From positions 1-64,000 of the forward strand of contig JAEUJN010000017.1 in assembly GCA_016794595.1 (NCBI GenBank): DNA of 64,000 nt, in the 5' to 3' direction. The position numbers were made by a program, and so were the translations under genes. Position 1 is the first letter of the stretch. Each line of letters starts with the position of its first letter. The notes beneath the pieces are model-generated. The model saw only the letters and a list, made by a program, of their open reading frames with translations. It was not told the DNA's origin and made no database searches. This DNA is from Kineosporiaceae bacterium (GTDB lineage: Bacteria > Actinomycetota > Actinomycetes > Actinomycetales > Kineosporiaceae). Of this stretch, positions 22,718 through 56,104 are shown one piece after another.

Positions 22718-24397
22718 TCAGACCGCTGCGACGTGCCGGCGGCTCTGAAGGGTCGTGAACCGTCCGGTGACGTAGGCCGGATCGGACAGGGCCGCCGTGG
22801 CGGCCGGGCTGGCAGGGCTGCCGTGGAAGTCGCTGAATGCCGTGGTCTGGTTGACGAACACCGCCGGACTCGTGAGGTTCTCCGACAGGTGAACGCCGAC
22901 GTCCAGGGCGGCGTCCCGGGCGGCCTCGAGCACGTCGGGGTCGGTCGAGTGCACCATGGCGGTGAGCGCGCCGTGCTCGCCCACGGTGCGGCGCAACACC
23001 TCGAGGCTCTCCTTGGTGGACTCGGTCTCGATCACGAACGAGATCGGCCCGAACCACTCGCGGGTGTAGACCTCCTCGCCGGACGCCGCGAGCGCCACCA
23101 CCAGCGGCGTGCGCACCACCGCCTCGGGGTGCTGCGGGTTCTCGACCGCGGACGACGGGTGCACCACCGAGCCGGTGGCGGCGGCCTGCTCCAGCCGGTC
23201 GGTCACGGCGGTGCTGGTGATGGCGCCGAGGATGCCGGCCGCCCGCTTGGGGTCACCGAGCAGGCCGTCCAGGGCGGCGGACAGGTCCTGGGCGAACTGC
23301 TCGGGGGTCTTGACCCCCTGGTCCGTGGTCATGCCGGTGCGGGCGATGAGCAGGTTCTGCGGCGTGGTGCACATCTGACCGCTGTACAGCGACAGCGAGA
23401 ACGCCAGGTTGGACAGCAGGCCCTTGTAGTTGTCGGTGGAGTCGAGCACGACAGTGTTCAGGCCCGCCTTCTCGGCGTAGACCACGGCCTGGCGGGCGTT
23501 GGCCTCCAGCCAGTCGCCGAACGACGTCGACCCGGTGTAGTCGATGATCCGCACGTCGGGGTGGCGGGCCAGGTCACCGGCGTTGGGGCTGCCCGGCTTC
23601 TCGGGCACGAGCAGCACCACGTTCGGGTCGAAGCCCGCCTCGGCGAGCACCTCGCGGGCGATCCGCACGGTGACCGCCAGCGGCAGGATCGCCTTCGGGT
23701 GCGGCTTGACCAGCACGGGGTTGCCGGTGACCAGGCTGGCGAACAGGCCGGGGTAGCTGTTCCAGGTCGGGAAGGTCACGCACGCGATCACCAGGGCGAC
23801 GCCGCGCCCGACCGGGGTGAACGTCTTCTCCATGGTGATCGGGTCACCCTTGCGCTGCGGCTTGCTCCAGATCGCCGAGGCCGGGTGGTGCTTCTGCTCG
23901 GCCCAGGCGTAGGCGACGGCCTCCAGGCCACGGTCCTGCGCGTGCGGGCCACCGGCCTGGAAGGCCATGGCGAAGGCCTGCCCGGTGGTGTGCTGCACGG
24001 CCTGGGCGATCTCGAAGCTGGCCGCGTTGAGCCGGGCGAGGATCTCGGCCGCGACCCCGGCCCGGGTGTCCGCCGACGCCCGGCGCCAGGCCCGGCCGGC
24101 GGTCTTGGCGATGGCGACCGCCTCGTCCGGGGCGAGGTAGGGGTAGCTGATGCCCAGCTCGAGGCCGTACGGCGAGACCTCTCCGGCCGCAACGGGTTCA
24201 CCGGGTTGCCCCAGGTCGAATGGCTTGCCCACCAGGGCCTGGAACGCCTCCGATCCCGTGGCCATGCCGTCCTCGCCGTAGGCGGGATCGTTCGGCATCT
24301 CGGGGTAGGCCGACCAACTGGCTCGCTCGGTGGTGGCGCGAACGGCACGTTCCAGCAGCTCGCGGTGACGGGTGAAGAAGTCAGGGGACTCGGACAT
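22718..24397 (-). CDS. paaN: PaaN aldehyde dehydrogenase of phenylacetate degradation
   Basis: An aldehyde dehydrogenase-superfamily protein of 559 residues. Visible are the NAD-binding part with TFPTWNSYPGLFASLVTGNPVLVKPHPKA, the glycine turn YTGSTSFGDWLEANA and the active-site cysteine in LYSGQMCTTPQNLLIA. PaaN-type proteins of actinobacteria are thought to oxidise the semialdehyde formed when oxepin-CoA is opened; unlike E. coli PaaZ they have no fused MaoC hydratase domain. The ATG with GAGGAG 5 nt upstream is the start. It is the last gene of the paaABCDE operon, 52 bp after the hydratase-GNAT fusion. Confidence 0.9.
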   Translation of the reverse strand: MSESPDFFTRHRELLERAVRATTERASWSAYPEMPNDPAYGEDGMATGSEAFQALVGKPFDLGQPGEPVAAGEVSPYGLELGISYPYLAPDEAVAIAKTAGRAWRRASADTRAGVAAEILARLNAASFEIAQAVQHTTGQAFAMAFQAGGPHAQDRGLEAVAYAWAEQKHHPASAIWSKPQRKGDPITMEKTFTPVGRGVALVIACVTFPTWNSYPGLFASLVTGNPVLVKPHPKAILPLAVTVRIAREVLAEAGFDPNVVLLVPEKPGSPNAGDLARHPDVRIIDYTGSTSFGDWLEANARQAVVYAEKAGLNTVVLDSTDNYKGLLSNLAFSLSLYSGQMCTTPQNLLIARTGMTTDQGVKTPEQFAQDLSAALDGLLGDPKRAAGILGAITSTAVTDRLEQAAATGSVVHPSSAVENPQHPEAVVRTPLVVALAASGEEVYTREWFGPISFVIETESTKESLEVLRRTVGEHGALTAMVHSTDPDVLEAARDAALDVGVHLSENLTSPAVFVNQTTAFSDFHGSPASPAATAALSDPAYVTGRFTTLQSRRHVAAV

Positions 24398-24449
24398 GTC
24401 GCTCCTCGGGACGGTGCGCTCGGTACGGCCGGGAAAAGGGTGGTCAGGG

Positions 24450-25790
24450 TCAGGCGGGCCGGGATGCCGCCGATCGCGCGGAGGGCTCGGCAGCCGGGTG
24501 CTGGGCGACCGGCTCCAGGGCACCGGACTGCTCCAGGACGACGTACCGCTTGCGGTCATGGGTCACCGTGGTCACCGGGGTGAAGCCGGACTGCTCCGCC
24601 ACCCGCAGCCCGACGGTGTTCCATTCCGGCACGGTGGTGCGCAGTCGTCGGTCGGCGGCGACGGTGCGGGCGTACTCGATGGCGGCACGTCCGAGAGCGG
24701 CGCCCCACCCCTTGCCGGACAGCTGAGGCCGGATGCCGATCGCCACGTCGAGAACGACCGGCGTCCCGGCGGCACCGGGCACCCGTGCTGCCTCGCCCAG
24801 GCAGCAGTACCCGAGCAGGCTGCCGGCGCCGTCCACGACGGCCCGGTAGCCCTCGTCGGGAGGGAAGGGCTGCATGGCGTCGTAGACCTGCCATGCTCCC
24901 GGCTGCGGTGAGGCGGCCAGGTCCAGGCCGTCCTCGATCGTGAGCTGGCGCAGGTGGAACGGCGGGACGGGCTGTCTGGCCCCGCCGGCCGGAGCCGCAC
25001 CGTTCGTGGTCACCTGAGGGGAGGTGGCTTCGGTCGCGGGAACCTGGTGGGCGCTCGCGGTCCGTTGGGCGAGGAAGCGACCCATGCGTTCCCGCTTGTC
25101 CTGGCTCTCGAACAGCAGGGCTTGGGCAGCCAGGTCGAATCCCGTCGTGGCCGGCCGGTGCGCTCGCAGTGCCAGTTTGGTCAGTTCCAGCGCCCGCCAG
25201 GAGCGAGCTGCAATGGTCTCGGCCAACGTCAGGCCGGCGTCCAGCAGCTCCTCGGGGGGGTGCACGGCATCGGCCAAGCCCACCTCGACCGCCTCAGCGG
25301 CCGGCAGGGTCTGCCCGGTGTAGAGCATCCTGCGGGCCACCGGCAGGCCGGCTGCCTGAGCCAGCCTCCAGTTTCCCCCGGCTCCGGCCAGGATGCCCAA
25401 CCCCAACTCGGGCTGGCCGAACCGGGCCCGGGTGCTGACCAGGCGAAGGTCGCAGGCCAGGGCCAGCTCACAGCCCCCGCCCAGGGCCGGGCCGTCCACC
25501 AGCGCGATCGTCGGCCAGCGGTGGGCCTCCAGCCGATCGAACAGGCCGGCGTTGATCGCGCGGAGCGCCGCATCGGCGTCCCGCTCGATCAGCTCGGCGA
25601 TGTCCGCGCCGGCGGCGAAGATCCCCGGCGTGGTGGAGTGCACGATCACCACGCAGGGTTCCCGGGATGCCTCGGTCAGCGCCCGGTCGAACTCGCTGAC
25701 CAGGGCTTCGTCCAGGGCGTTGTGCTTGTCCGGTCGGTGCAGGCCGATCAGCAGCGCCGAACCGCGACGCGAGGTGCGCACGAGGGCCAT
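24450..25790 (-). CDS. Enoyl-CoA hydratase fused to a GNAT N-acetyltransferase
   Basis: A single uninterrupted 446-codon frame encodes two domains. Residues 1-250 are a crotonase: GIFAAGADIAEL builds the oxyanion hole, and both catalytic glutamates are present, Glu108 in GGGCELALACD and Glu128 in FGQPELGLG, as in true enoyl-CoA hydratases. A Thr/Pro/Ala-rich linker (250-275) leads to a GNAT domain (about 278-420) with the acetyl-CoA loop RPQLSGKGWGAALG at 354-367. The hydratase part could do the PaaF step, hydration of the dehydroadipyl-CoA intermediate. The acetyltransferase role is unknown. It lies between paaE and paaN in the operon. Confidence 0.85.
   Translation of the reverse strand: MALVRTSRRGSALLIGLHRPDKHNALDEALVSEFDRALTEASREPCVVIVHSTTPGIFAAGADIAELIERDADAALRAINAGLFDRLEAHRWPTIALVDGPALGGGCELALACDLRLVSTRARFGQPELGLGILAGAGGNWRLAQAAGLPVARRMLYTGQTLPAAEAVEVGLADAVHPPEELLDAGLTLAETIAARSWRALELTKLALRAHRPATTGFDLAAQALLFESQDKRERMGRFLAQRTASAHQVPATEATSPQVTTNGAAPAGGARQPVPPFHLRQLTIEDGLDLAASPQPGAWQVYDAMQPFPPDEGYRAVVDGAGSLLGYCCLGEAARVPGAAGTPVVLDVAIGIRPQLSGKGWGAALGRAAIEYARTVAADRRLRTTVPEWNTVGLRVAEQSGFTPVTTVTHDRKRYVVLEQSGALEPVAQHPAAEPSARSAASRPA

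Positions 25791-28632: not shown

Positions 28633-28636
<4 letters not shown>
28298..28636 (-). CDS. paaB: Phenylacetyl-CoA epoxidase subunit PaaB
   Basis: A small 112-residue subunit that bridges the PaaAC heterodimers. After a Pro/Asn-rich head the conserved core runs [41 protein letters not shown] and [12 protein letters not shown]. Its ATG overlaps the paaA stop (ATGA) and its stop overlaps the paaC start, so the three subunits are translationally coupled. Confidence 0.95.
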
Positions 28637-29625
<989 letters not shown>

Positions 29626-29634
29626 GCAGCCTCC

Positions 29635-29682
29635 AATTAACGAACGTTCAGTCAGTTTCCAGTCTGGGACGGGTGAAGTCAA
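29635..29682 (-). promoter_or_regulatory. paaA promoter with PaaR-type operator
   Basis: Read on the minus strand, TTGACT and GAAACT are spaced by 17 bp and form a plausible -35/-10 pair. Immediately downstream lies a 22-bp partial palindrome with ACTG-AA-CG-TT-CGTT at its centre and ACT/AAT flanks, covering the likely start site. This is close to the PaaR operator consensus that I remember from Corynebacterium (not verifiable here). The paaA ribosome binding site follows within 10 bp. Confidence 0.65.
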
Positions 29683-29743
29683 CGCCTTCGACGGGCGGTC
29701 TGGGGACAGTTCACGTGGTCGACATGCATTCCGGCGCAGCGAT

Positions 29744-30943
29744 TCACGCCTGCTCGAGCAGCAGCGCGATCCCCTGCCCGACCCCGACGCACATCGTCGC
29801 CACCGCCCGTCGCGCACCACGGTCGTTCAGTTCGATCGCCGCGGACAGGGCGAGCCGGGCGCCACTCATGCCCAACGGGTGGCCCAGCGCGATCGCCCCC
29901 CCGTGGGGATTGACATGGTCGGGATCATCGCCCAGCCCCAGCCCGCGCAGTACCGCCAGCGACTGGGAGGCGAACGCCTCGTTGAGCTCGATCACATCGA
30001 TGTCGCCGATGGACAACCCGTTGCGCTGCAACAGCTTGCGCGTGGCCGGCTCCGGTCCGATGCCCATGATGCGTGGGGTGACACCGACCGCGGCCAGGCC
30101 GGTGACCCGCGCCAGGGGGGTCAGACCGTACTGCTCGACCGCCCGTCCCGAGGCGACCAACAGGGCCGCTGCCCCGTCGTTCACCCCGGAGGCGTTGCCC
30201 GCGGTCACGGTGCCGCCGGGAAACAGCGGCCGCAGGGCCGCCAGGCTGTCGGCGGTCGTCGGGCGTGGGTGCTCGTCAACCTCGACGATCAATGGCTCGC
30301 CGCGGCGTCGGGGGACCGGCACGGGGGTGATCTCGCGCCCGAGCCGCCCGCTCAGGATCGCCGCCGCGGCCCGGGTCTGTGATCGCAGGGCGAAGGCGTC
30401 CTGATCCGTGCGACTGACGCCGAACTCCCGGGCCACGTTCTCGGCCGTCTCCGGCATGGAGTCGGTCCCGAACTGCTCGCGCATCGCCGGGTTGACGAAG
30501 CGCCAACCGATCGTGGTGTCGTGGATCTCGGTGCTCCGGCTGTAGGCCGAGCCGGCCTTGGGGACCACGAACGGGGCCCGGCTCATGCTCTCCGTGCCGC
30601 CGGCGATCACCAGGTCGGCGTCGCCGGCTCGGATCGCTCGGGCGGCCATCCCGACGGCGTCCAGGCCGGACCCGCACAGCCGGTTCAGCGTTCCCCCGGG
30701 GGCCTGTACCGGCAGTCCGGCCAGCAGGGTCGCCATCCGCGCGACGTTGCGATTGTCCTCCCCGGCCTGGTTGGCGCACCCGAGCAGGACGTCGTCCAGC
30801 GCCCCCCAGTCGACCCCCGGAAGGCGTTCGGTGAGGGCGGCGATCACGTGAGCAGCCAGATCATCGGGACGTACCGGGGCCAGCGATCCGCCGTAGCGTC
30901 CGATCGGGGTGCGGGTTCCGTCGACCAGATAGGCATCGATCAT
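29744..30943 (-). CDS. Thiolase, probable 3-oxoadipyl-CoA/3-oxo-5,6-dehydrosuberyl-CoA thiolase (PaaJ/PcaF type)
   Basis: A 399-residue thiolase with the acyl-enzyme Cys in [18 protein letters not shown], the [12 protein letters not shown] loop, [32 protein letters not shown] and the second Cys in [10 protein letters not shown]. The phenylacetate pathway needs this activity twice, at the C8 and C6 levels. It precedes paaA on the same strand but with a separate promoter between, and follows the dehydrogenase gene by 85 bp, so it probably shares that gene's transcript. Confidence 0.88.
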
Positions 30944-31028
30944 GGGGGTCTCGCTCTCTCGTCGCACTGCTCGGTGCTGCTGGGTGCTGCTGGGTGCTGG
31001 TCGGTGGCCCGCGGGACGGGCCGGGGGC

Positions 31029-32597
31029 TCAGAGGGTGCGCAGGGGCCGGCCGGTGAGTGCGGCGCGGCGCAGGGTCGAGCAGGCCCGGTAGCGGCCGTC
31101 CCCGTGATGGGCGCCCACGGTGTCCAGCAGCTCGACCAGGCGCCGGGCGCCGATCGCATCGCCCCAGGTCAGGGGACCTTGGGGATGGTTGGCCCCCAAC
31201 TCCATCGCGGCATCGACGGCGGCTGCGTCGGCGACGCCTCGTCCGGCGACGTCCGCCGCCTCGTTCACCAGCATCGCTGCGGTGCGGGCGACGAGGAGCC
31301 CGGGGACGTCGTCCAGCACCGTGACCTCGGCCCCACAGGCTTGCAGCATCCCGATCGCCTCGGCGAGGGCAGCCGGTGGGCAGCCGTCCGAGGCGGCCAC
31401 GGCCCAGCGCGCGGTCGTGGCCGGATCGCGGGCAAGGTCGAGGACGACGGTCGGCCGGCCCCGTTCGACTGCCTCCTGGGTGGCGGTGCGACCGGAGGTC
31501 GGCACCAGCAGCACCTGGTCCATGCGGGCCACGGCCCCTGCCGGGCTCGGCGCCGTGGCGGCCGGCCCGGCTGTGGCCGAGCCCGCAGGGCTGTCGGTCG
31601 CCCGGCGTACCGCGATCCCCGTGCCGGCCAGGCGCTCCCACAGAGGTTCCCACGGACCCCAGTCGCCCTCGACGATCACCTCGGCAGGGGCGGGTGACGC
31701 CGCGGCGGTCGCCGGGCTCGGCGGGGGCGATCCGTCGTGGACGTAGAACCCGCGCCCGCTCTTGCGGCCCAACCGGCCGGCGTCCACCAGTTGGCGCTGG
31801 GCCAGCGAGGGCGCATAGCGCGGATCGTGGCCGAAGGCCTCCCAGACGCTGCGGTTGGCCGCCTGGTTGACGTCTTGGCCGATCAGGTCGGTCAGTTCGA
31901 GTGGACCCATCCGGAACCCACCGGACTCGCGCATCACGGCGTCCAGGGTTGCCGGGTCGCCCGCGCGTTCCTCGAGGGCCCGCAGCGCCTCACCGTAGAA
32001 CGGTCGCGCCACCCGGTTGACCACGAACCCCGGGGTCGAGGCGACCTGAATCGGCACCTTTCCCCAGGCCCGGGCCGTTCCTGCCACCCACTCGGCCACC
32101 CGGGGGTCGGTGTCCAGCCCCGAGATCACCTCGACCAGCCGCATCACCTGGGCGGGATTGAAGAAGTGCATTCCGACCAGGCGGCCCGGCCGGCGCAGTG
32201 GTGCGGCGATGGCCGAGACGGACAGGGACGAGGTGTTGGTCGCCAGCACGCAGTCCTGGCTCACGATCGACTCCAGCGTCGCGAACAGGCTGTTCTTGAC
32301 CTCCAGGGACTCCGCGGCGGCCTCGATCACCAGCGAGGCCCCGGCCAGGGCGGTGAGGTCGTCGGCGGCGGTCAGGCGACTGCCGGCGGCCAAGGCGACC
32401 GGCTCCTCGAGCCGGCCACGGGCGGCCAGACGGTCCAGCTGCCCCCGCACTGCCCGCACCGCGTCGTCGGCACGACCGGGGACGGCATCGACCATCACCA
32501 CCGGGTGGCCGGCCAGCGTCGCGGTCTGGGCGATGCCCGAGCCCATGGTGCCGACCCCCACGACACCGACCGTCCCACCGGGTTGCAGCTGGGTCAT
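31029..32597 (-). CDS. paaH: 3-hydroxyacyl-CoA dehydrogenase, PaaH type
   Basis: A 522-residue NAD-dependent dehydrogenase. The first half is the classical enzyme: Rossmann loop GVGTMGSGIAQ near residue 15, ATNTSSLSV, the HFFNPAQVMRLVEV histidine motif, and a C-terminal domain with TPGFVVNRV. A second, degenerate Rossmann-like part and another 3HCDH C-terminal domain (VPGLLVARTAAMLVNEAADV, GANHPQGPLTWGD) follow, as in PaaH of E. coli. It oxidises 3-hydroxyadipyl-CoA. The upstream divergent region carries two PaaR-type sites. Confidence 0.92.
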   Translation of the reverse strand: MTQLQPGGTVGVVGVGTMGSGIAQTATLAGHPVVMVDAVPGRADDAVRAVRGQLDRLAARGRLEEPVALAAGSRLTAADDLTALAGASLVIEAAAESLEVKNSLFATLESIVSQDCVLATNTSSLSVSAIAAPLRRPGRLVGMHFFNPAQVMRLVEVISGLDTDPRVAEWVAGTARAWGKVPIQVASTPGFVVNRVARPFYGEALRALEERAGDPATLDAVMRESGGFRMGPLELTDLIGQDVNQAANRSVWEAFGHDPRYAPSLAQRQLVDAGRLGRKSGRGFYVHDGSPPPSPATAAASPAPAEVIVEGDWGPWEPLWERLAGTGIAVRRATDSPAGSATAGPAATAPSPAGAVARMDQVLLVPTSGRTATQEAVERGRPTVVLDLARDPATTARWAVAASDGCPPAALAEAIGMLQACGAEVTVLDDVPGLLVARTAAMLVNEAADVAGRGVADAAAVDAAMELGANHPQGPLTWGDAIGARRLVELLDTVGAHHGDGRYRACSTLRRAALTGRPLRTL

Positions 32598-32627
32598 GCT
32601 CTCCCCTTCGTCCTGGCAGGCTCGATG

Positions 32628-32641
32628 ACCGAACGTTCAGC
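32628..32641 (-). promoter_or_regulatory. PaaR-type operator in front of paaH
   Basis: ACCG-AA-CG-TT-CAGC lies 31 bp upstream of the paaH ATG. It is one of six related sites in the window and keeps the central CG and left ACCG exactly. A second site in the same 195-bp divergent region serves the opposite gene. Confidence 0.55.
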
Positions 32642-32685
32642 CGGAGCTGCCGTCCGGATCTCGCCAAGCTCACCGGGTTCACGCC

Positions 32686-32744
32686 TTGACAGCCGGAGCC
32701 GGGCGGCGCAGATTGCTAACCATATAACCGAACGAACAGTCAGT
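32686..32744 (+). promoter_or_regulatory. Promoter and PaaR-type operator of the diiron oxygenase operon
   Basis: TTGACA and, 17 bp on, CAGATT form a candidate promoter. Ten bases later comes the site TAACCG-AA-CG-AA-CAGT-C-AGT, which has the highest match to the pattern ACCG-N2-CG-N2-CGGT-N-AGT in this window (one deviation). Position relative to the -10 box equals that at paaG and paaA. Confidence 0.65.
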
Positions 32745-32792
32745 AAACGGCCTGGGTTCGGCTGGTCCGTGCCACGACGAGGAGAAGCAGCC

Positions 32793-33821
32793 GTGTCGGC
32801 TCATCACGAGAAGATCGCGCATCTGCAGGAGTACCCGCCGCAGACCCCGCAGCCCAACATCTACCCGTTGGGCTGGCCGGCCGGGCCGGGCAAGCTGGAG
32901 GAGATCTGGGCATCGGCGCAGAAGGAGCTCTGGGACCCCGCGAAGCTGGCCTGGACCACCTTCAACCCGGCCAAGTACACCTGGGAGCAACGCGAGGCGA
33001 TCGGGTACTGGTGGACCTTGCTGTCGGTCTTCGACGCCTCGGCGCCCCCGGTGTTCGCGACTGCCTTCGTCAAGACCTACGAGAACCACGAGGACGACGT
33101 GGTGCGGCGCTGCTTCCTCAGCGTCACCCGGGACGAGCAGGTGCACGAGCAGATGTGCCGGCTGTCCGTGGCTGCGGTCCTCGAGCACGAGGACCCGCTC
33201 ACGTACCAGCCGCGCACCGAACTCGGACTGAGGCTCCAGAAGAACGTGCGCTGGCTGTTCTACAACGGTGGCCGCTACTGGGAGGCCTACAAGCACGCCG
33301 TGCCGAACTATGACCTGGCGGTGCTGTTCTCCTCGTTCCTGATGGGCGAGATCGCCGCCGCGACCATCTTCCATCAGATGGCCGCACGCTGCACCGAGCC
33401 CGTCTTCCAGGAGGCATTCCGCCGTATCGGGCGGGACGAGGGACGCCACATGGGGATCTGCATGGCGTTGATGGAGCGCGACTACCCACGACTCGACGTG
33501 TCCCGACATGCGCTGATCACCAAGCAGATCCGGGCCGGGTACCTGTTCCTGTCGGCGGTGCTGTTCGAGCCACCGGCCGAGTTCTGGGATCTGCCGGAGG
33601 ATTTCATCGGCACCCAGCGCGAGGCCGAGCAGATCGCCCGTCAGGCCGGTTTCGCCATCCCCGATTACGAGGAGAAGCGAGAGAACTGGCGCCGGGCGAT
33701 GCTCAATCTGAAGGGCGTTCTCGACCGCTACGGCATCCCGTTCCCGGCGATCCCCGAGGTGGGCATCACGGGCGAGGAGGTCACCGACGTCGACCTGAAG
33801 GACGTCGTCCCGGTGTTCTGA
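32793..33821 (+). CDS. R2-like/ferritin-fold diiron protein, putative oxygenase component
   Basis: A 342-residue protein that I do not recognise by name. The ligand pattern of the ribonucleotide reductase R2 / R2-like oxidase superfamily is visible: a carboxylate in helix B (Asp81 in SVFDASAPP), ExxH in helix C (Glu115-His118, RDEQVH), Glu186 in helix E (LMGEIAAATIF) and ExxH in helix F (Glu216-His219, RDEGRH). The head is Pro-rich (PPQTPQPNIYPLGWP), then ELWDPAKLAW. The next gene encodes a ferredoxin-reductase, so a two-component oxygenase is likely. The GTG start follows GAGGAG. A PaaR-type promoter precedes it. The substrate is unknown; an aromatic or acyl-CoA compound is an inference. Confidence 0.72.
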   Translation: MSAHHEKIAHLQEYPPQTPQPNIYPLGWPAGPGKLEEIWASAQKELWDPAKLAWTTFNPAKYTWEQREAIGYWWTLLSVFDASAPPVFATAFVKTYENHEDDVVRRCFLSVTRDEQVHEQMCRLSVAAVLEHEDPLTYQPRTELGLRLQKNVRWLFYNGGRYWEAYKHAVPNYDLAVLFSSFLMGEIAAATIFHQMAARCTEPVFQEAFRRIGRDEGRHMGICMALMERDYPRLDVSRHALITKQIRAGYLFLSAVLFEPPAEFWDLPEDFIGTQREAEQIARQAGFAIPDYEEKRENWRRAMLNLKGVLDRYGIPFPAIPEVGITGEEVTDVDLKDVVPVF

Positions 33822-33869
33822 GGCCACCACGCCGATCGCGCTGCACCGCCGGCACGGAAAGGGCCTCAC

Positions 33870-34913
33870 ATGGGCCGGATCAGGCTGCACCCCTCGTCCC
33901 ACCTGGTGCCCTGCGAGGCGGGGGACACCGTGCTCGAGGCGCTCGAACGTGCCGGATACGCCCTGCCCAACAACTGTCGGGCGGGGGCGTGCGGAGAGTG
34001 CCGGGTGCGGGTGCGCTCGGGGACCTTCGACCAGGGATTCGTCCTGGACATGGCCTTGTCCTCCGAGGATCGCCGGGCCGGTTTCGGGCTGATGTGCATG
34101 GCCAAGCTCACCGGGGAGGAGATCGAGATCGAGTGGGGCACGGTGGATGCCCGCCCCACCATGTTCCCGACCCGGGAGAACCTGCCGTTCGTGCTGGTCG
34201 ACTCGGTGGCCCGCACCCCGAGGATCAGGGAACTCGTGCTGCGTCCGCTGGCCGAACCGCTGAGATTCTGGCCCGGCCAGTACGTGCGCCTGGGTGATCC
34301 GGAGGCCGGCGTGCCGCGCCGCTCGTACTCCCTGGCCACGGCTGCCCACCCGGACGGCGAGCTGCGCCTGCACGTGACCCGGGTCGACGGCGGGCGAACG
34401 AGCGCCTGGCTGCACGCGCTGGCGCCCGGCGTGACCTTGGAGCTCTCGGGCCCGCACGGCGGCTTCGTCGGCGATCCGTCAGTGGCGACCCCGGTGCTGT
34501 GCCTGGCGGCCGGATCGGGCCTGGCGCCGATCCGTTCCCTGACCGAGGCCGCGCTGCGTCGGGGTTTCGCCCCGGAGGTGACGCTCGTCTTCTCGGCGCG
34601 GGCCGAGGAGGATCTCTACGAGCGTGGACTGCTCCGCTACTGGCAGGCGCGCCACGCCACCTTCCACTACGTGCCCACCCTGACCCGCGAGCGGGTTCCC
34701 GGGATCAGGTTCGGGCACATCCCCGACGTCCTGCCCGGACTGCTGCCCTCGCTGGCCGGCCACAGTGTCTTCATCGCCGGCAGACAGGATTTCGTCGATG
34801 CCTGCCGTGCCGTGGTGGAAGGGTTGGGGGCCAAGCCGCACCTGGTTCACGTCGAGGGGTTCCACGCGCAACCCGATGACCCGCTGGGCGATCACGGCCA
34901 ACCGGTGACCTGA
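33870..34913 (+). CDS. Ferredoxin-NAD(P)H reductase, electron donor of a diiron oxygenase
   Basis: A 347-residue reductase built like BenC, XylA or PaaE relatives but with the plant-type ferredoxin domain first (Cys36, Cys41, Cys44 and Cys76 in NNCRAGACGEC...LMCMA). The FAD domain follows (FWPGQYVRLGD, RRSYSLATA) and then the NAD domain (CLAAGSGLAPIRSL, VFIAGRQDFVDACRAVVEG). It lies 48 bp after the diiron protein gene and 11 bp before the acyltransferase gene. It most likely feeds electrons to the diiron protein. Confidence 0.88.
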   Translation: MGRIRLHPSSHLVPCEAGDTVLEALERAGYALPNNCRAGACGECRVRVRSGTFDQGFVLDMALSSEDRRAGFGLMCMAKLTGEEIEIEWGTVDARPTMFPTRENLPFVLVDSVARTPRIRELVLRPLAEPLRFWPGQYVRLGDPEAGVPRRSYSLATAAHPDGELRLHVTRVDGGRTSAWLHALAPGVTLELSGPHGGFVGDPSVATPVLCLAAGSGLAPIRSLTEAALRRGFAPEVTLVFSARAEEDLYERGLLRYWQARHATFHYVPTLTRERVPGIRFGHIPDVLPGLLPSLAGHSVFIAGRQDFVDACRAVVEGLGAKPHLVHVEGFHAQPDDPLGDHGQPVT

Positions 34914-34924
34914 GGGAGGGGACG

Positions 34925-36355
34925 ATGACAGCGCGGCAACTCAGCGGGCTGGACGCCGAGTTCCTGGCCATGGAGTCGAGTGAGGTCTGCGGTCACTTCG
35001 GCACGGTCACCGTGCTGGAGGGTGCAGAGGGCCTCGACCTTCCCGCCCTGCGCGAGCACATCGGTGCGCGACTGCACCGGGTACCCGTGCTGCGCCAGCG
35101 CGTCATGAACGTTGTCCTCGGCCTGGACCAGCCCTACTGGGTGGACGACTCCGACTTCGACATCGATCACCATGTGCACGAAGTGCTGTTGCCCGCCTCC
35201 GATGGTCTGGACGGGGTGGCCGCACGGATCGATGCCCTGCACGCCGAGCACCTGGATCGGGCGCTGCCCCTGTGGCAGGTCTACCTGTTCCGCGATCCGG
35301 ACGGTGGCCGGGCGGCGGTCTACTTCAAGATTCACCACGCGGTGATGGACGGCGTCGGCGGCAGCGCGCTGATCGCCGCCGTGTTCGAGGACGCCGCCGA
35401 TCCGCTCGGCTCGGAGCCGGTCGTCCCGGCCTGGGATCCGGAGCCGGTACCGAGCCATGTGGACCTGATCAGCCGCAGCGCCTGGTCGATGGCCCGCACC
35501 GGATTGCGCAGCATGCGGCTCAGCGCCCAGATGATGGTGCGCGCTCCTGCCGTGGCTCAGGCCGTGGTGCGCCGGTTGCCCTCGAGCGGCTCGTCGGCGG
35601 TGGCGGCCGATGCCGGCGTGCTGCCGCTGCGGGCCCCTCGGACTCCGTTCAATGCCCGGATCACCGGCCACCGCCAGTGTGAGCTCAGAACCCTGCCGCT
35701 GGAGGAGATCAAGCAGGTCTGCCGGGCGGTTGCCCCCCTCGTCGGTGCGGTGACCGTCAATGACGTCGTCATGACACTGTGCGCGGGGGCCCTTCGTCGC
35801 TGGTTGATCGAGCACGGTGCCCTGCCCGAACAGCCGCTGCTCGCGGCCGTGCCGGTCTCGGAACGCACCGACGCCGACCACCAGGCCTTCGGCAACCGGC
35901 TCGCACTGGTCCGGGGGCCGCTGCCCACCCCGGAGGCGGACCCGATCGAACGGCTGCGCGCCGTGCACGAGGGAATGGCCACGGCTCTGCGCCGGCACGA
36001 CAACCTGACCCGCGGGCTGGTCTCCGACGCAGCGGAGTACGCCCCTCCGCTGGTGGCCCGAGCTGGGTGGTGGGTCGCAGCCCGGGCCATGGCGCGAGTG
36101 AACGCGTTCAACGTGATGGTGGCCAACGTGCGCGGGCCCTCGGGTCCGATGGTCCTGGCCGGGGCGCGCGTGGTCGGCCACCATCCGGTGTCGGTCCTGG
36201 TCCACGGGCAGGGGCTGAACATCAGTGTCTTCGGCTTCGACGACCGGCTCTGCTGGGGGCTGCTCGCCGACCCGGCCCTGGTGCCCGACCTGCCTCACCT
36301 GGCCGATCTGGTGTCCGAGGAGTTGATCCTCCTGCGGGCGGCGTCCGCCGGGTGA
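34925..36355 (+). CDS. Wax ester synthase / diacylglycerol acyltransferase (WS/DGAT)
   Basis: A bifunctional acyltransferase of 476 residues using acyl-CoA to esterify fatty alcohols or diacylglycerol for storage lipid. The catalytic motif HHAVMDG lies at 137-143. The N-terminal LSGLDAEFLAMES and the later NDVVMTLCAGALRRWL and NAFNVMVANVRGPSGPM are family segments. It is peripheral to the membrane, with no transmembrane helix. GAGGGGACG before the ATG is the ribosome binding site. Its position in the same operon as the diiron protein and reductase suggests that their product is acyl-CoA or alcohol related, or that all are induced together for carbon storage. Confidence 0.9.
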   Translation: MTARQLSGLDAEFLAMESSEVCGHFGTVTVLEGAEGLDLPALREHIGARLHRVPVLRQRVMNVVLGLDQPYWVDDSDFDIDHHVHEVLLPASDGLDGVAARIDALHAEHLDRALPLWQVYLFRDPDGGRAAVYFKIHHAVMDGVGGSALIAAVFEDAADPLGSEPVVPAWDPEPVPSHVDLISRSAWSMARTGLRSMRLSAQMMVRAPAVAQAVVRRLPSSGSSAVAADAGVLPLRAPRTPFNARITGHRQCELRTLPLEEIKQVCRAVAPLVGAVTVNDVVMTLCAGALRRWLIEHGALPEQPLLAAVPVSERTDADHQAFGNRLALVRGPLPTPEADPIERLRAVHEGMATALRRHDNLTRGLVSDAAEYAPPLVARAGWWVAARAMARVNAFNVMVANVRGPSGPMVLAGARVVGHHPVSVLVHGQGLNISVFGFDDRLCWGLLADPALVPDLPHLADLVSEELILLRAASAG

Positions 36356-44472: not shown

Positions 44473-45639
44473 ATGCCAGAAGCTGTGGTCGTCGCCATTG
44501 GCCGGACGCCGATCGGCCGAGCCATGAGGGGTTCGCTGATCGACGAGCGCCCCGACAACCTCGGCGCGCTGGTCGTCGACGAGGTGCTGGGGCGCGTGCC
44601 CCAACTCGACCGCACCACGGTGGACGACGTGATCGCCGGGTGCGCGTTGCCCGGCGGGGAGCAGGCCCACAACATGGGCCGCATCGTCAGTCTGCTGGCC
44701 GGGGTGAACGCGCCGGGGACAACCGTCAACCGGTACTGCTCCTCCTCGCTGCAGGCCGTCCGGATGGCCTTCCACGCCATCAAGGCCGGCGAGGGTGACG
44801 CGTTCGTCTGTGTGGGCATCGAGTCGACCACCCACTCACCGCTCGGTGTCTACGCCGACCAGCCCGAGACCCAGAACCCCCGCCTGTTCAAGGGCAACCG
44901 CGAGGGACTGCCGAACGCCTACATGCCCATGGGCCTGACCGCCGAGCGGGTGGCCGACGAGCACAACGTCAGCCGCGAGGACATGGACCGGCTCGCCGTC
45001 CAGAGCCACTCACGCGCCGTCGCCGCCCAGAAGGCCGGCCACTTCGAGAACGAGATCATCCCGGTGCCGCTGTCCGGCGGGCGCCTGGCCGACCTCGACG
45101 ACAGCCCCCGGCCGGAGACCACGATGGAGTCCCTGGCCGGCCTGCGCGCGGTGTTCCGCCGCGACGGCAAGGTCACTGCCGGCAACTCCTGCCCGCTCAA
45201 CGACGGTGCCGCAGCAGCGGTGATCATGTCGGACACCCGGGCCGCGGAACTCGGCATCACCCCGATCGCCAGGATCATCTCGACGGGGGTCAGCGCGCTC
45301 GAGCCGGAGCTCATGGGCCTGGGCCCGATCGACTCCTCGAAGCAGGCGCTCACCCGGGCCGGGATGAGCATCGACGACGTCGACATCGTCGAGATCAACG
45401 AGGCGTTCGCCGCCCAGGTGATCCCCTCGGCGCTCGGCATCGGGGTGGACCCGTTCAGCGAGAAGCTCAACCCGCTCGGTGGGGCGATCGCCCTCGGCCA
45501 CCCGTTCGGCATGACCGGCGTGCGGATCCTGACCACCCTGCTCAACGGGCTGAAGGTCAAGGACGCCTCCGTCGGCCTGGAGACCATGTGCGTCGGCGGG
45601 GGCCAGGGCATGGCGATCGTCGTGGAGCGGATGGCCTGA
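44473..45639 (+). CDS. Acetyl-CoA acyltransferase (thiolase)
   Basis: A 388-residue thiolase with the nucleophile Cys in TVNRYCSSSLQAVRMAF, the substrate loop [55 protein letters not shown] and the general-base Cys in ETMCVGGGQG. The CSSS variant and the length fit FadA-like acyltransferases of fatty acid oxidation more than a dedicated PhaA. It stands directly before the PHA synthase (ATG overlaps TGA), so it may work in the condensing direction to acetoacetyl-CoA. Confidence 0.87.
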   Translation: MPEAVVVAIGRTPIGRAMRGSLIDERPDNLGALVVDEVLGRVPQLDRTTVDDVIAGCALPGGEQAHNMGRIVSLLAGVNAPGTTVNRYCSSSLQAVRMAFHAIKAGEGDAFVCVGIESTTHSPLGVYADQPETQNPRLFKGNREGLPNAYMPMGLTAERVADEHNVSREDMDRLAVQSHSRAVAAQKAGHFENEIIPVPLSGGRLADLDDSPRPETTMESLAGLRAVFRRDGKVTAGNSCPLNDGAAAAVIMSDTRAAELGITPIARIISTGVSALEPELMGLGPIDSSKQALTRAGMSIDDVDIVEINEAFAAQVIPSALGIGVDPFSEKLNPLGGAIALGHPFGMTGVRILTTLLNGLKVKDASVGLETMCVGGGQGMAIVVERMA

Positions 45640-47405
45640 TGGCGACCTCCCGTGGGTCGGACTCCTCGGGGGAGGAACCGGCGCCGCCGTCGTCGCCTGC
45701 CTCCCTCGAGGAGCCGGCCCACGTGGCGGACGACGAGCACGCGGCGACCCATCTGGCCGGTGGCGCAGGGGCTGTGGTGGGCCCGAGCCCCTTCGTGGGC
45801 TTCGGGTTGCGTGACGCGGTCACCGGGCTGGGAGCGCTCGGGCGGCGTGCCGTGGGCAACCCCAAGGCCTTGGTCGCCGGCGTGCCGCGTGCCGCGTGGC
45901 ACCTGGCCCGGATCGGCACGGGGCGCTCCCCGGTCGCTCCCGACCCCGGGGACAAGCGGTTCCGTGACCCGGTGTGGCAGACGAACCCGCTGTTCCGTGC
46001 CCTGATGCAGGGCTACCTGTTCCTCGGTCGTGAGGCCGACGTGGTGGTCGAGCACCTCGGGCTGGACCCCAAGGACGTGGAGCGAGTCGAGTTCGTCACC
46101 CACCTGATTCGCGAGGGGCTGGCACCGACGAACAACCTGTTGACCAATCCGGTTGCCCTGCGCGAGCTCCGCAGGACCCGGGGTCGCAGCATCGTGCGCG
46201 GTGCGGGCCACCTGGTGCACGACATCCGGCGCAATCACGCGATGCCCTCACAGGTGAACCGCACCCCGTTCCGGGTGGGGGAGAACCTGGCCGTGACTCC
46301 CGGGGCGGTGATCCACCGCACCGAGATGATGGAGGTGATCCAGTACACCCCGCAGCGATCGCGGGTCTACTCGCGGCCGATGCTCGTCATCCCGCCCCAG
46401 GTGAACAAGTACTACGCGCTGGACCTGGCGCCCGGGCGCAGCATGTACGAGTACCTGCTGCAGCACGGTGTCCAGGTCTACGGCATCAGCTGGCGCAACC
46501 CGACGAAGGAGCAGCGGGAGTGGGGGTTCGACGCGTACGCGGCAGCGGCGCTCGAGGCGCTGGACGTCGTCCGCGCCGTCTCGCGCAGCGAGGACGTCAA
46601 CGTCATGGGTGGCTGCGCGGGCGGGATGATGGTCTCGATCCTGGCCGCGATCCTGGCTTCGCGTGAGGATCGGCGGATCCATTCCGTGACCACCCTGGTC
46701 ACGTTGCTGGACAGCAAGGTCGACGCCGAGATCCTGCTGTTCGCCTCCCCGCGAACGGTGGCTGCAGCCAAGCGGATGTCCGCCAAGCAGGGGGTGCTCG
46801 ACGGCTGGAGGATGGCCCAGGTCTTCGCCTGGCTGCGCCCCAACGAGCTGATCTGGAACTACTGGGTCAACAACTACCTGCTCGGCAAGGAGCCACCGGC
46901 CTTCGACATCCTGGCCTGGAACGCCGACACCACCCGGCTGCCGGCGCGGCTGCACCACGAACTGCTCGAGATCGTCACCGAGAACCAGCTGGCCAGCCCT
47001 GGACGGCTGCGCATCCTCGACACCCCGGTGGACGTCGGTGCGATCGACGTCGACACCTTCGTGGTCGGGGGGCTGACCGACCACATCACGCCGTGGGCCG
47101 GCTGCTACCGCACGACCCAGATGGTGGGTGGGGCCAGCGAGTTCGTGCTCTGCTCCAGCGGGCACGTGCAGAGCCTGGTGGCGGCGCCCACCCACCGGGG
47201 GCTCGCCTACTACGTCAACCCGGTGACGCCGGCCGACCCCGACGCCTGGTTCGCCGGGGCACAGAGACACGAGGGCACCTGGTGGCAGCACTGGGTGCAG
47301 TGGCTCGGCCACCGTTCCGGCCCGCTGCGCAGGGCCCCGGCCAAGCTCGGGAACGCCGCCCACCCCGTGATCGAGAAGGCACCGGGAACCTATGTCCGCC
47401 AATGA
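45639..47405 (+). CDS. phaC: Poly(3-hydroxyalkanoate) synthase
   Basis: A 588-residue single-subunit PHA synthase that polymerises (R)-3-hydroxyacyl-CoA at the granule surface. The lipase-like box is GGCAGG (Cys326 as nucleophile), and the other triad residues are probably Asp481 in GGLTDHITPW and His509 in SSGHVQS. The N-terminal part contains DPVWQTNPLFRALMQGYL and NRTPFRVGENLAVTPGAVIHR, typical of class I/II. Length suggests class I or II, not the two-subunit III/IV. No phasin or PhaR gene is nearby. Its ATG overlaps the thiolase stop. Confidence 0.92.
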   Translation: MATSRGSDSSGEEPAPPSSPASLEEPAHVADDEHAATHLAGGAGAVVGPSPFVGFGLRDAVTGLGALGRRAVGNPKALVAGVPRAAWHLARIGTGRSPVAPDPGDKRFRDPVWQTNPLFRALMQGYLFLGREADVVVEHLGLDPKDVERVEFVTHLIREGLAPTNNLLTNPVALRELRRTRGRSIVRGAGHLVHDIRRNHAMPSQVNRTPFRVGENLAVTPGAVIHRTEMMEVIQYTPQRSRVYSRPMLVIPPQVNKYYALDLAPGRSMYEYLLQHGVQVYGISWRNPTKEQREWGFDAYAAAALEALDVVRAVSRSEDVNVMGGCAGGMMVSILAAILASREDRRIHSVTTLVTLLDSKVDAEILLFASPRTVAAAKRMSAKQGVLDGWRMAQVFAWLRPNELIWNYWVNNYLLGKEPPAFDILAWNADTTRLPARLHHELLEIVTENQLASPGRLRILDTPVDVGAIDVDTFVVGGLTDHITPWAGCYRTTQMVGGASEFVLCSSGHVQSLVAAPTHRGLAYYVNPVTPADPDAWFAGAQRHEGTWWQHWVQWLGHRSGPLRRAPAKLGNAAHPVIEKAPGTYVRQ

Positions 47406-47489
47406 GTTTCACGATTGCTCACCAGACCGTTCACCCGATCCCCACCGGATCTGCGAGACCGCCACCGCGCGGAAGAAGAGGAGTTCCCG

Positions 47490-48239
47490 ATGAGCACGAC
47501 ACAGACCCGAGTTGCCCTGGTGACCGGCGGGACGCGGGGGATCGGTGCCTCCATCTCGCAGGTGCTCGCCGCCGGCGGAGCCAAGGTGGTGGCGGTGTAC
47601 AACAGCCATGCCGAGTCGGCCGAGGACTACGCCAAGAAGGCCGCAGCCGACGGACTCGACATCGAGGTCCGGCATGCCAATGTGGCCAACCCGACCGACT
47701 GCCAGAGCGTCGTCGAGGCGGTGATCCGCGATCACGGGCGGTTGGACCACCTGGTGAACAACGCCGGGATCGTCCGGGACCGCACCGCGATCAAGATGCA
47801 GCTGCTCGACTGGGACCAGGTGATCAAGACCAACCTGTACGGGCCGTTCTTCCTGGCCAAGGCGGCCCTGCCGCACTTCATCGAGCAGGGTTTCGGGCGC
47901 ATCGTCAACATCAGTTCGTTCGTGGGTGAGACCGGTCGGATCGGCCAGTCGAACTACGCCGCGTCCAAGGCGGGCCTGTTCGGTCTGACCAAGACGCTGG
48001 CCCTGGAGACCGCAGGAAAGGGGATCACGGTGAACTGCGTCATCCCGGGGGCGATCGAGACCGAGATGTCCCGCAAGCTGCCGGCGGAGATCCTGCAGAC
48101 GGTCATCGACATGGTGCCGATGAAGAAGATGGGCTCGCCGGAGGACATCGCCGAGGCCGTCCAGTTCCTGTGCTCGGACAAGGCCGGCTACATCACCGGT
48201 GCCCTGATCCCGGTTACCGGCGGTCTGCTGATGATGTGA
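47490..48239 (+). CDS. phaB: Acetoacetyl-CoA reductase / 3-oxoacyl reductase (SDR)
   Basis: A 249-residue short-chain dehydrogenase. The NADPH motif is TGGTRGIG, followed by [14 protein letters not shown] and the catalytic YAASK, with the PGAIETEM loop. AAGAGGAG precedes the ATG. In this setting it should reduce acetoacetyl-CoA to (R)-3-hydroxybutyryl-CoA for PHA synthase; a FabG role in fatty acid synthesis cannot be excluded by sequence. Its 3' end overlaps the convergent tesB gene by 26 nt. Confidence 0.86.
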   Translation: MSTTQTRVALVTGGTRGIGASISQVLAAGGAKVVAVYNSHAESAEDYAKKAAADGLDIEVRHANVANPTDCQSVVEAVIRDHGRLDHLVNNAGIVRDRTAIKMQLLDWDQVIKTNLYGPFFLAKAALPHFIEQGFGRIVNISSFVGETGRIGQSNYAASKAGLFGLTKTLALETAGKGITVNCVIPGAIETEMSRKLPAEILQTVIDMVPMKKMGSPEDIAEAVQFLCSDKAGYITGALIPVTGGLLMM

Positions 48240-49406: not shown

Positions 49407-51653
49407 TCAGGTGAAGGGTTCGGCGCGTTTGATCAGGTCCTCGAGGCCGGGCTCGGCCGGGTTGCGCGGCTTGCCCGGGTGGATGATCGCCACCTGGCAG
49501 TTCTCCGCCGCCTGCACCAGCTCGGCGAAGGTGCCGGCGTCGGCGTCGGCGATGTAGGCCTGCCGGTTCTCGTTGTAGGCGAACATCCTGTCGTTGACCA
49601 GCGTGCACTCGTTGCAGGTCGAGCAGCGGGCGGTCTCGATCCAGGGCTGGTAGGGGTCGCGGGCGACCGGCTCGTCCTCCTCCTCGCCCAGGTCGAGCAG
49701 GTCCGCCACGGCGGGTGCCGCCGCCGGGGCTCCGGTCGCCGGTCCCGCCTGGCCCGTGCCGGACGTCAACCCCAGGGACGCGGCCTTGGCCGCCGCGATC
49801 AGCTCGGCCCGCTCGGCCTCCCACTGCGCCCGTTCGTGGGCCAGCTCCCGGGCGGCGTAGGAGTTGTGGATCCCGCCCCGCTCCTGCAACCGGCGCCACT
49901 TGCCCAGGATGTGACCGACCAGCCGCAGCAGTGGCCGGTCGACCAGCACCCGGTGCAGGCCGTCCTCGGCGTCGACCATGAGCAGGTAGGGCAGTTCGTC
50001 CGTCCACGCGTCACTGCCCTTGGCCAGGTGTTCGGCGAACGGGACGACGGTGCCCCCGAAGTCGTCGCCGGCCAGTGCCAGGTGGTGCAGGAACCGGGCG
50101 TCACCGGCGAAGAAGTCGGCGGCGGTGAACGCCAGCTCGACCTCGCGGTGCTGCAGGGACTCGTCGGCGTAGCGCAGCGGGCGCACCGGCCAGTCCTCGT
50201 CCACCCGGGGATTGACGTGCAGGGTGAACCGATCGGCCCAGGTCGGGCCGGCCGACGGGTCGTAGCAGTACGCCGGGAACACCCGGGCCTCCGTCGCCGC
50301 GGCCGCCGCGATGAACGGCGGCAGATCGGCGACCCACTGCCCGGCCCCGGTGTACACCGCGAACAGCGCCGATCGGGGCGCGGCGCACCCTCGGACCAGC
50401 TGGTCCATGGCGACCGCCAGGGCGGAGGCCGGAACCTGCAGGATGAACGCCTCGCCGTCGCCGAGCGCGGCGCCGGTGAGGGTCCGCGGCGAGAGGCCCC
50501 CGGCGCCCCCGGCCATGGCGTGCGGCACCAGGTCGTTGACGCAGACCACCGCGTTGATCGGCAGGTGGTCCGACAGCGCCTCCAGCAGCTCGATGGTGTC
50601 CGCCGGGGAGAGCTGCTCCAGGTCGCAGTGCACCAGGTACTCGGGGAACATCTCGAGCGTCGCGGCGTCCAGGTCGGCCACGCTCCAGCTCTCGAACAGC
50701 GCGTCGTGTGCCTGCTCGCGGTAGCGGCCGTCGATCTCGAGCTCGGCGATCACCAGCGCCTTGGCCAGCTCGGTGGTCGCGGTGAAGCGCTCGTGGTAGG
50801 CAGCGATGGCCGCGGCCGGGGCGTCGTAGACGAACTCGTACCCCTCCCGTCCGGCCGGGGGCATGAACTGCTGGCTCTCGAGCACCTCCAGCAGGCGGCG
50901 CACCCGCTCGCGCCGGGCGTCGCTGAGCAGGAAGGCGGGCCGGTTGTCGGTGAGCAACCGGGCCAGCGCCGTCACGTCGAGCTCGCCGGCGAACACCGGC
51001 CCGATCGAGTGGGCGATCCGGTCCGGGGTCAGCCCGGCCGCCGAGTTGGCCTGCTCGGCGGCCAGGATGTCGGCCAGCCCGTGACGCAGCCGCTCCAGCC
51101 GGGCCGCCAGCCGCTGCACCCGGGCTGCCTGGACCACCGACCACACGTGGGTCACGATCCGGCGGGCGCTGTCGGTGGTGCAGGCGACGAGCTCGCCGTC
51201 GACGTCCCGGGCGGCGGTGAGCCGTTCGAGGTGCGGGGCACACGTGGGGTCCTCGGCGGTCATCGTGGCCACCGCCTGGGACCAGGCCTCGGACAGCCGG
51301 ACCACCTGCTGCTCCGCCCGCGCGCGCAGGTGTTGCTCGAGCACCAACCCCAGCTGGCGGACCCGATCGGCATCCTCCCCGGTGGCCCGGGCCTCGAGCA
51401 GGTCGTCGATCAGCCCGGACAGCGGGCGCAGCGGCGCCTCGGGGTCGGCGAGCAGGATCAGCGGATAGTCGTGGCGCAGTTCCTCCGGGCGCCGGTAGGC
51501 GGCCAGTGGTGCCGCTCGCAACCCCAGGCCCGCGACGTCCGCGAGCTGGGTGTCCGCCGTCCGGCCGGTGAGGTAGAAGGAGGCCCGGTCCTGCTGCAGG
51601 TTCGGACGGCGCCGGCGCGCCTCGGCCTTGAGCGCCTCGAGGATCTCGCTCAT
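49407..51653 (-). CDS. Third subunit of a 2-oxoacid:ferredoxin oxidoreductase, with C-terminal 4Fe-4S ferredoxin-like domain
   Basis: A 748-residue soluble protein that I do not recognise as a named family. The first 600 residues are mostly helical and show no known catalytic motif (the start is MSEILEALKAEARRRRPNLQ). A Pro/Ala-rich linker near 630-650 leads to a C-terminal cluster site with Cys677, Cys680, Cys683 and Cys719 (CSTCNEC and ENCQVAIIHPG), the pattern of a single [4Fe-4S] ferredoxin-like domain. The ATG overlaps the stop of the beta-subunit gene (ATGA), so it is made with the oxidoreductase and probably links it to its electron acceptor or to a scaffold. Confidence 0.7.
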   Translation of the reverse strand: MSEILEALKAEARRRRPNLQQDRASFYLTGRTADTQLADVAGLGLRAAPLAAYRRPEELRHDYPLILLADPEAPLRPLSGLIDDLLEARATGEDADRVRQLGLVLEQHLRARAEQQVVRLSEAWSQAVATMTAEDPTCAPHLERLTAARDVDGELVACTTDSARRIVTHVWSVVQAARVQRLAARLERLRHGLADILAAEQANSAAGLTPDRIAHSIGPVFAGELDVTALARLLTDNRPAFLLSDARRERVRRLLEVLESQQFMPPAGREGYEFVYDAPAAAIAAYHERFTATTELAKALVIAELEIDGRYREQAHDALFESWSVADLDAATLEMFPEYLVHCDLEQLSPADTIELLEALSDHLPINAVVCVNDLVPHAMAGGAGGLSPRTLTGAALGDGEAFILQVPASALAVAMDQLVRGCAAPRSALFAVYTGAGQWVADLPPFIAAAAATEARVFPAYCYDPSAGPTWADRFTLHVNPRVDEDWPVRPLRYADESLQHREVELAFTAADFFAGDARFLHHLALAGDDFGGTVVPFAEHLAKGSDAWTDELPYLLMVDAEDGLHRVLVDRPLLRLVGHILGKWRRLQERGGIHNSYAARELAHERAQWEAERAELIAAAKAASLGLTSGTGQAGPATGAPAAAPAVADLLDLGEEEDEPVARDPYQPWIETARCSTCNECTLVNDRMFAYNENRQAYIADADAGTFAELVQAAENCQVAIIHPGKPRNPAEPGLEDLIKRAEPFT

Positions 51654-56102: not shown

Positions 56103-56104
56103 GG

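Follow-up and report, generated by a model that had tools for sequence, protein, structure and literature searches.

A two-gene R2-like diiron oxygenase probably serves as a phenylacetyl-CoA 1,2-epoxidase in place of PaaABCE in many bacteria, and beside PaaABCE in an actinobacterium

We propose that an R2-like diiron protein and the reductase encoded next to it form a two-component phenylacetyl-CoA 1,2-epoxidase. Judging from the genomes compared, this pair most likely replaces PaaABCE in many bacteria, and it is kept beside PaaABCE in the actinobacterium (a member of the Kineosporiaceae) from which the DNA analyzed here comes (64,000 nucleotides, hereafter the window). Phenylacetate is a central hub of bacterial aromatic degradation. 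To our knowledge, its epoxidase has been treated as unique, with ring oxygenation assumed to depend in every case on the PaaABCDE complex of five parts. Our proposal comes from comparative genomics. It builds directly on the metal ligands, the predicted fold, the conserved pairing, the linkage to paa genes, and a distribution in which the pair and PaaA cover for each other; what we infer is the reaction, which substrate is used in the window organism, and why both systems were kept.

In the window, three plus-strand genes (diiron protein, reductase, and WS/DGAT) are divergent to a minus-strand paa operon. The features are:

22718 to 24559, minus strand: PaaN, ring-opening aldehyde dehydrogenase (TIGR02288)
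28633 to 29820, minus strand: PaaA, canonical epoxidase catalytic subunit (TIGR02156, over cut-off)
29744 to 31159, minus strand: 3-oxoadipyl-CoA thiolase, PaaJ/PcaF (TIGR02430, over cut-off)
31029 to 32597, minus strand: 3-hydroxyacyl-CoA dehydrogenase (PaaH family), the divergent neighbor (PRK08268, over cut-off)
32598 to 32792, no strand: divergent promoter region common to paaH and the diiron gene, with TetR/PaaR-like sites at 32628 and 32727
32793 to 33821, plus strand: R2-like diiron oxygenase component, proposed phenylacetyl-CoA 1,2-epoxidase (open reading frame of 342 amino acids, GTG start)
33033 to 33035, plus strand: codon of Asp81, the first metal ligand (invariant in 36 homologs)
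33135 to 33146, plus strand: ligand pair E115-x-x-H118 (invariant), with Cys122 four residues past His118
33348 to 33350, plus strand: codon of Glu186, metal ligand (invariant in 36 homologs)
33438 to 33449, plus strand: ligand pair E216-x-x-H219 (invariant in 36 homologs)
33870 to 34913, plus strand: NAD(P)H reductase, 347 amino acids (Pfam: N-terminal Fer2, FAD_binding_6, NAD_binding_1)
34925 to 36355, plus strand: WS/DGAT acyltransferase, 476 amino acids (TIGR02946 over cut-off, HHxxxDG), outside the conserved module

The original prediction, made from this DNA alone, had described these three reading frames correctly, with gaps of 48 bp (diiron gene to reductase) and 11 bp (reductase to WS/DGAT). 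It was also right that the second gene is a ferredoxin reductase (Pfam gives the order Fer2-FAD-NAD) and that the third is a true WS/DGAT. An AGGAG lies upstream of the diiron gene's GTG start. From the promoter, the paa operon runs paaH, pcaF-type thiolase, paaA, paaC, paaE, and, farthest away, paaN (paaC and paaE were assigned by reading the translations). The PaaH-family neighbor scores below the cut-off of the PaaH model TIGR02279 (NCBIfam).

What the original prediction did not reach, and what we consider the main point, is that the pair stands in for PaaABCE in many genomes. We searched for PaaA (TIGR02156) in 47 genomes that carry the pair (the window's and 46 others). PaaA is missing from 16 of the 46 others, and at least nine of these are named isolates (Brachymonas denitrificans, D. 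denitrificans, D. hortensis, Azonexus hydrophilus, Azospirillum halopraeferens, Castellaniella sp. S9, Alcaligenaceae strain CGII-56, and two Sedimenticola hydrogenitrophicus strains). Each of the 16 carries paa genes next to the pair (paaX at the minimum), as against 11 of the 31 PaaA holders, a count that takes in the window and Vitreoscilla (P = 9e-6, which is only indicative because the genomes share ancestry). With 16 more from the family of Dechloromonas denitrificans, there are 32 genomes with the diiron gene and without PaaA. PaaC was found in none of the 32, PaaG scores over its cut-off in 31, and a PaaK-type ligase is matched in 31 (28 over the cut-off, the other three at 608–614 bits versus 646). 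PaaG isomerizes ring-1,2-epoxyphenylacetyl-CoA to oxepin-CoA, and because its known substrate is the ring-epoxide, an epoxidase must exist in the PaaA-less genomes. The pair is the sole epoxidase candidate in the PaaA-less clusters. For example, the Brachymonas denitrificans cluster encodes PaaJ/PcaF, PaaK, PaaI, PaaH, PaaG, PaaN, and PaaX (all over equivalog-level cut-offs), and no oxygenase gene other than the pair was found in it. We also considered BoxB as the general missing epoxidase and rejected it, as only 4 of the 32 genomes hold BoxB.

The distribution within the Dechloromonas denitrificans family points the same way. Among 220 genomes, 59 encode a PaaN_2 of the phenylacetate type that scores over 885 bits, a line that was drawn after the data were seen; 23 of these have PaaA only, 19 have the diiron gene only, 17 have both, and none has neither (P = 7e-6, again indicative only). 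With the line at 850 bits, there are three genomes with neither; we read two of them, and both carry another PaaA-like gene in the epoxidase slot. At the cut-off of the PaaN_2 family itself (578.75 bits), 83 genomes qualify and 21 of them have neither; these 21 presumably hold PaaN relatives from other pathways. On the diiron tree, the absence of PaaA requires at least nine changes, and a tree-based pair test was not significant, with too few independent cases.

A third occupant of the epoxidase slot is a 259-amino-acid PF05138 protein (86 bits, 23–26% identical to PaaA). It lies at 6611–7390 of locus L074 (genome G302), L075 (G330) has the same layout, and G232 has it by coordinates. The gene is divergent to paaN and is followed by paaG, paaI, paaJ, and paaK, and these genomes have neither PaaA over the cut-off nor the diiron pair.

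The two genes of the pair belong together. We found the diiron gene at 61 loci from genome contigs (62–75% identity), mostly in Alpha-, Beta-, and Gammaproteobacteria, and at five more on plasmid-collection records. The reductase adjoins it in 64 of 64 loci (L002–L065), and pairwise distances of the two proteins co-vary (r = 0.90 without the outgroup). In all three of these proteobacterial classes, the pair occurs in or beside phenylacetate clusters. The usual order in Betaproteobacteria is paaJ-K-I-H-G-N, then, divergently, diiron gene–reductase, paaX, and a branched-chain-type ABC transporter. On Vitreoscilla pVF1, the pair is inside a paa cluster that includes paaABCDE. More distant homologs (47–64%) from Variovorax and Actinomycetota adjoin genes of arylacetyl-CoA type. 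In particular, Variovorax plasmids L064 and L065 (12001–13000 and flanks) carry a relative of the pair at 48% identity among genes for IOR, an FAD oxidase, an ABC transporter, a thiolase, a CoA ligase, and MaoC/ECH proteins, and the L064 cluster also has PaaN. Perhaps this cluster serves an arylpyruvate/aryllactate route that has an arylacetyl-CoA oxygenase of its own. In Oceanospirillaceae, the pair is an isolated unit at a distance from paa genes, and PaaA was found elsewhere in every such genome searched (loci L014, L018, L020–L024, L026–L032, L034, L036, L056, L057, and L059).

The diiron protein itself fits an oxygenase. An alignment of 36 homologs down to 47% identity shows no variation at any of the ligands named in the original prediction (D81, E115, H118, E186, E216, and H219). 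The structural comparison that it had called for also gave an R2-like fold: a model built from 32 homologs (pLDDT 82, pTM 0.82) matches R2lox (3ee4/7qbp) with Z of 19.5 over 258 residues at 3.2 Å, RNR R2 with Z of about 18, and VlmB with Z of 18.1. Foldseek agrees, with modest scores. (PaaA and BoxB are not among the best 50 structural matches listed, which has no bearing either way.) Because the ligands are invariant and the predicted fold is R2-like, the diiron site is more than a chance arrangement. In most subclasses of RNR R2, the radical tyrosine lies four residues after the first ligand histidine, and soluble methane monooxygenase has a cysteine at that position. Here, Cys122 is invariant in the 36 homologs at H118+4 and the radical tyrosine is absent there, which favors a role in oxygenation over radical storage. 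Marks of R2lox are Glu as the first ligand and a Tyr-Val cross-link, and the first ligand of the diiron protein is the invariant Asp81. Together, the carboxylate/His ligand set and the co-encoded flavin/[2Fe-2S] reductase are those expected of a two-component diiron oxygenase.

No family in Pfam, NCBIfam, or the PDB names the diiron protein (profile and sequence searches), so the earlier statement that it matches no named enzyme holds. Searches of PDB sequences with the single sequence or a profile gave nothing significant. In Pfam, there is a weak Rubrerythrin match, just at threshold, and an AurF (PF11583) match of 17.0 bits, below the gathering threshold of 29.6 (relatives score 20.5–25.4). 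NCBIfam gave no match of any meaning. The RNR-R2 families of Pfam do not match it. Nor do the PaaA/PaaC models TIGR02156, TIGR02158, and PF05138 (Pfam, NCBIfam) or the BoxB model TIGR03225 (NCBIfam) at E ≤ 1. A two-component oxygenase distinct from PaaABCE, as originally predicted, is supported.

Regulation may also tie the pair to the pathway. In many diiron-only genomes, the diiron gene is divergent to paaN at 360–534 bp. The paaN–diiron intergenic regions of 17 loci contain 55 YGATAC...GTATCR sites (6 expected from shuffles); the words YGATAC and GTATCR occur upstream of both genes, and in many loci they are paired 34 bp apart. As paaX is close by, paaN and the diiron gene are likely under common repression. 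In the window, a TetR/PaaR-like site (ACCGAACGaacAGTCAGT) does lie upstream of the diiron gene at 32727, but it is not the best PaaR-type site as had been claimed: by a simple half-site score within the window, those at 29639, 32628, and 36392 rank higher. TetR operator-like sites of the type GAACGTTC are found at 29639, 32628, 32727, 36392, and 41044, preceding the paaA region, paaH and the diiron gene, and genes downstream, which suggests a single PaaR-type regulon. The two sites between paaH and the diiron gene are putatively PaaR's.

The window's pair was likely gained by transfer from Proteobacteria, as the diiron sequence is placed within Proteobacteria on the tree (support 95, on a long branch). 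The gene is present in 1 of 13 genomes of the window's family (the window's own), and we judged transfer from this count and the tree. A sample of 396 genomes from the phylum gave one other clear case (two matches in Actinomycetota, at E near 1e-4, were left out as too weak), and an order-wide census of 250 genomes gave six clear matches, too thin for use. The diiron gene has a GC content of 0.659 versus 0.71 and a normal third codon position, so that base composition alone is uninformative as a sign of recent transfer. PaaK was not found in the window genome at E ≤ 1e-100. Because this genome also has PaaABCE, with PaaA and its operon alongside the pair, the argument from PaaA-less genomes does not require the pair here, and it would be an additional epoxidase. 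That both systems are kept would make sense if the pair differs in oxygen affinity or acts on a related substrate.

The window has two other gene sets of note. Polyhydroxyalkanoate genes lie near the paa locus at 44477–48239 (for a thiolase, a PHA synthase resembling those of class II, and acetoacetyl-CoA reductase). At 49407–57058, the translations read as a 2-oxoacid:ferredoxin oxidoreductase-like set with NfnAB/GltD-like partners. As the Variovorax relatives of the pair are also near an indolepyruvate-type oxidoreductase, this set could be a source of arylacetyl-CoA or of reduced ferredoxin.

In the mechanism that we propose, the reductase would pass electrons from NAD(P)H via FAD and [2Fe-2S] to the diiron protein, which would activate O2 and set one oxygen atom across C1–C2 of the ring in phenylacetyl-CoA. 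The ring-1,2-epoxyphenylacetyl-CoA so formed would go to PaaG, and the resulting oxepin-CoA to PaaZ/PaaN and beta-oxidation. The pair would be functionally equivalent to PaaABCE while belonging to an unrelated enzyme family, and would replace it in many genomes. This actinobacterium would have acquired the pair from Proteobacteria, in a position divergent to the paa operon, and retained it as a second epoxidase, perhaps one suited to another oxygen level or to a related arylacetyl-CoA.

Some observations count against an epoxidase. N-oxygenases and radical generators, too, are found among R2-fold proteins, and in Oceanospirillaceae and some others the pair is away from paa genes while PaaA is in the genome. 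The pair might instead oxidize a different arylacetyl-CoA (such as hydroxy- or indole-acetyl-CoA) that feeds the paa enzymes, as an accessory side-entry. This would fit its coexistence with PaaABCE in the window and in 19 of the 40 genomes of one family that carry the pair, and also the indolepyruvate-type oxidoreductase and FAD oxidase beside the Variovorax relatives (47–49%). But the PaaA-less genomes hold equivalog-level PaaK and PaaG, which are specific for phenylacetate and its ring-epoxide, in clusters without any other epoxidase candidate, and so we consider a side-entry role unlikely.

Two further ideas seem far less probable. A system for scavenging oxygen or peroxide or for handling iron, placed with paa genes to deal with reactive species from oxygenase metabolism, would agree with the Rubrerythrin match and with the stand-alone copies in Oceanospirillaceae. 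It would leave unexplained the complete paa clusters without PaaA or PaaC but with PaaG, and the absence of genomes with neither PaaA nor the diiron gene (0 of 59), and we give it very little credence. The original prediction had the substrate as aromatic or acyl, with a product ending in storage lipid. The aromatic part stands, with phenylacetyl-CoA as the supported substrate. As to the rest, a hydroxylase or desaturase of acyl or aromatic substrates, with a product that becomes wax ester or triacylglycerol, would account for the 11-bp gap to the WS/DGAT gene and for the polyhydroxyalkanoate genes nearby. However, WS/DGAT accompanies the pair only in the window and in 0 of 64 other loci, many of which have paa genes there; because this link is not conserved, we dropped the storage-lipid idea, which we regard as highly improbable.

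If the pair is an epoxidase, we lean toward a broader view: the epoxidase slot of the phenylacetate pathway is swappable, PaaABCE having lost its place several times to the R2-fold pair and, in some genomes, to a diverged PaaA-like protein, so that PaaA and PaaC are not universal markers. The pair is then possibly the first known R2-fold enzyme to epoxidize a benzene ring. A 2026 survey found PaaA and PaaC in every kept proteome with a phenylacetate-CoA ligase (PMC13186573). As it kept only ligases co-located with PaaABCDE (PMC13186573), a two-gene route would be missed. The universality of the two markers becomes directly testable. If true, a two-gene replacement changes how the pathway is detected in genomes, adds another chemistry to the R2 fold, and offers a simpler dearomatizing epoxidase for biocatalysis. 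The pair is not described in the literature that we searched (subscription papers and preprints were outside its scope).

Among known systems, AurF/CmlI/VlmB-type N-oxygenases (PF11583) share weak profile similarity with the diiron protein (17–25 bits) and the fold of VlmB, but it scores below their gathering threshold, belongs to a catabolic CoA pathway, and has its own reductase. R2lox and RNR R2 share the predicted fold and the ligand order D/E, ExxH, E, ExxH, but identity in the structural alignments is 7–15% and only the pair has a dedicated reductase. BoxAB, the benzoyl-CoA epoxidase (TIGR03225/TIGR03224), also combines a single diiron protein with a reductase and acts on an aromatic CoA thioester, but BoxB is longer (a 471-position model) and its profile does not match the diiron protein. 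Finally, PaaABC(D)E (TIGR02156/02158, PF05138) shares the proposed reaction, substrate, and pathway position, and likewise combines a diiron protein with a flavin/iron-sulfur reductase. In contrast to that multi-subunit complex, the pair has one oxygenase gene, its diiron protein has no detectable sequence relation to PaaA or PaaC, and its reductase carries Fer2 at the N terminus.
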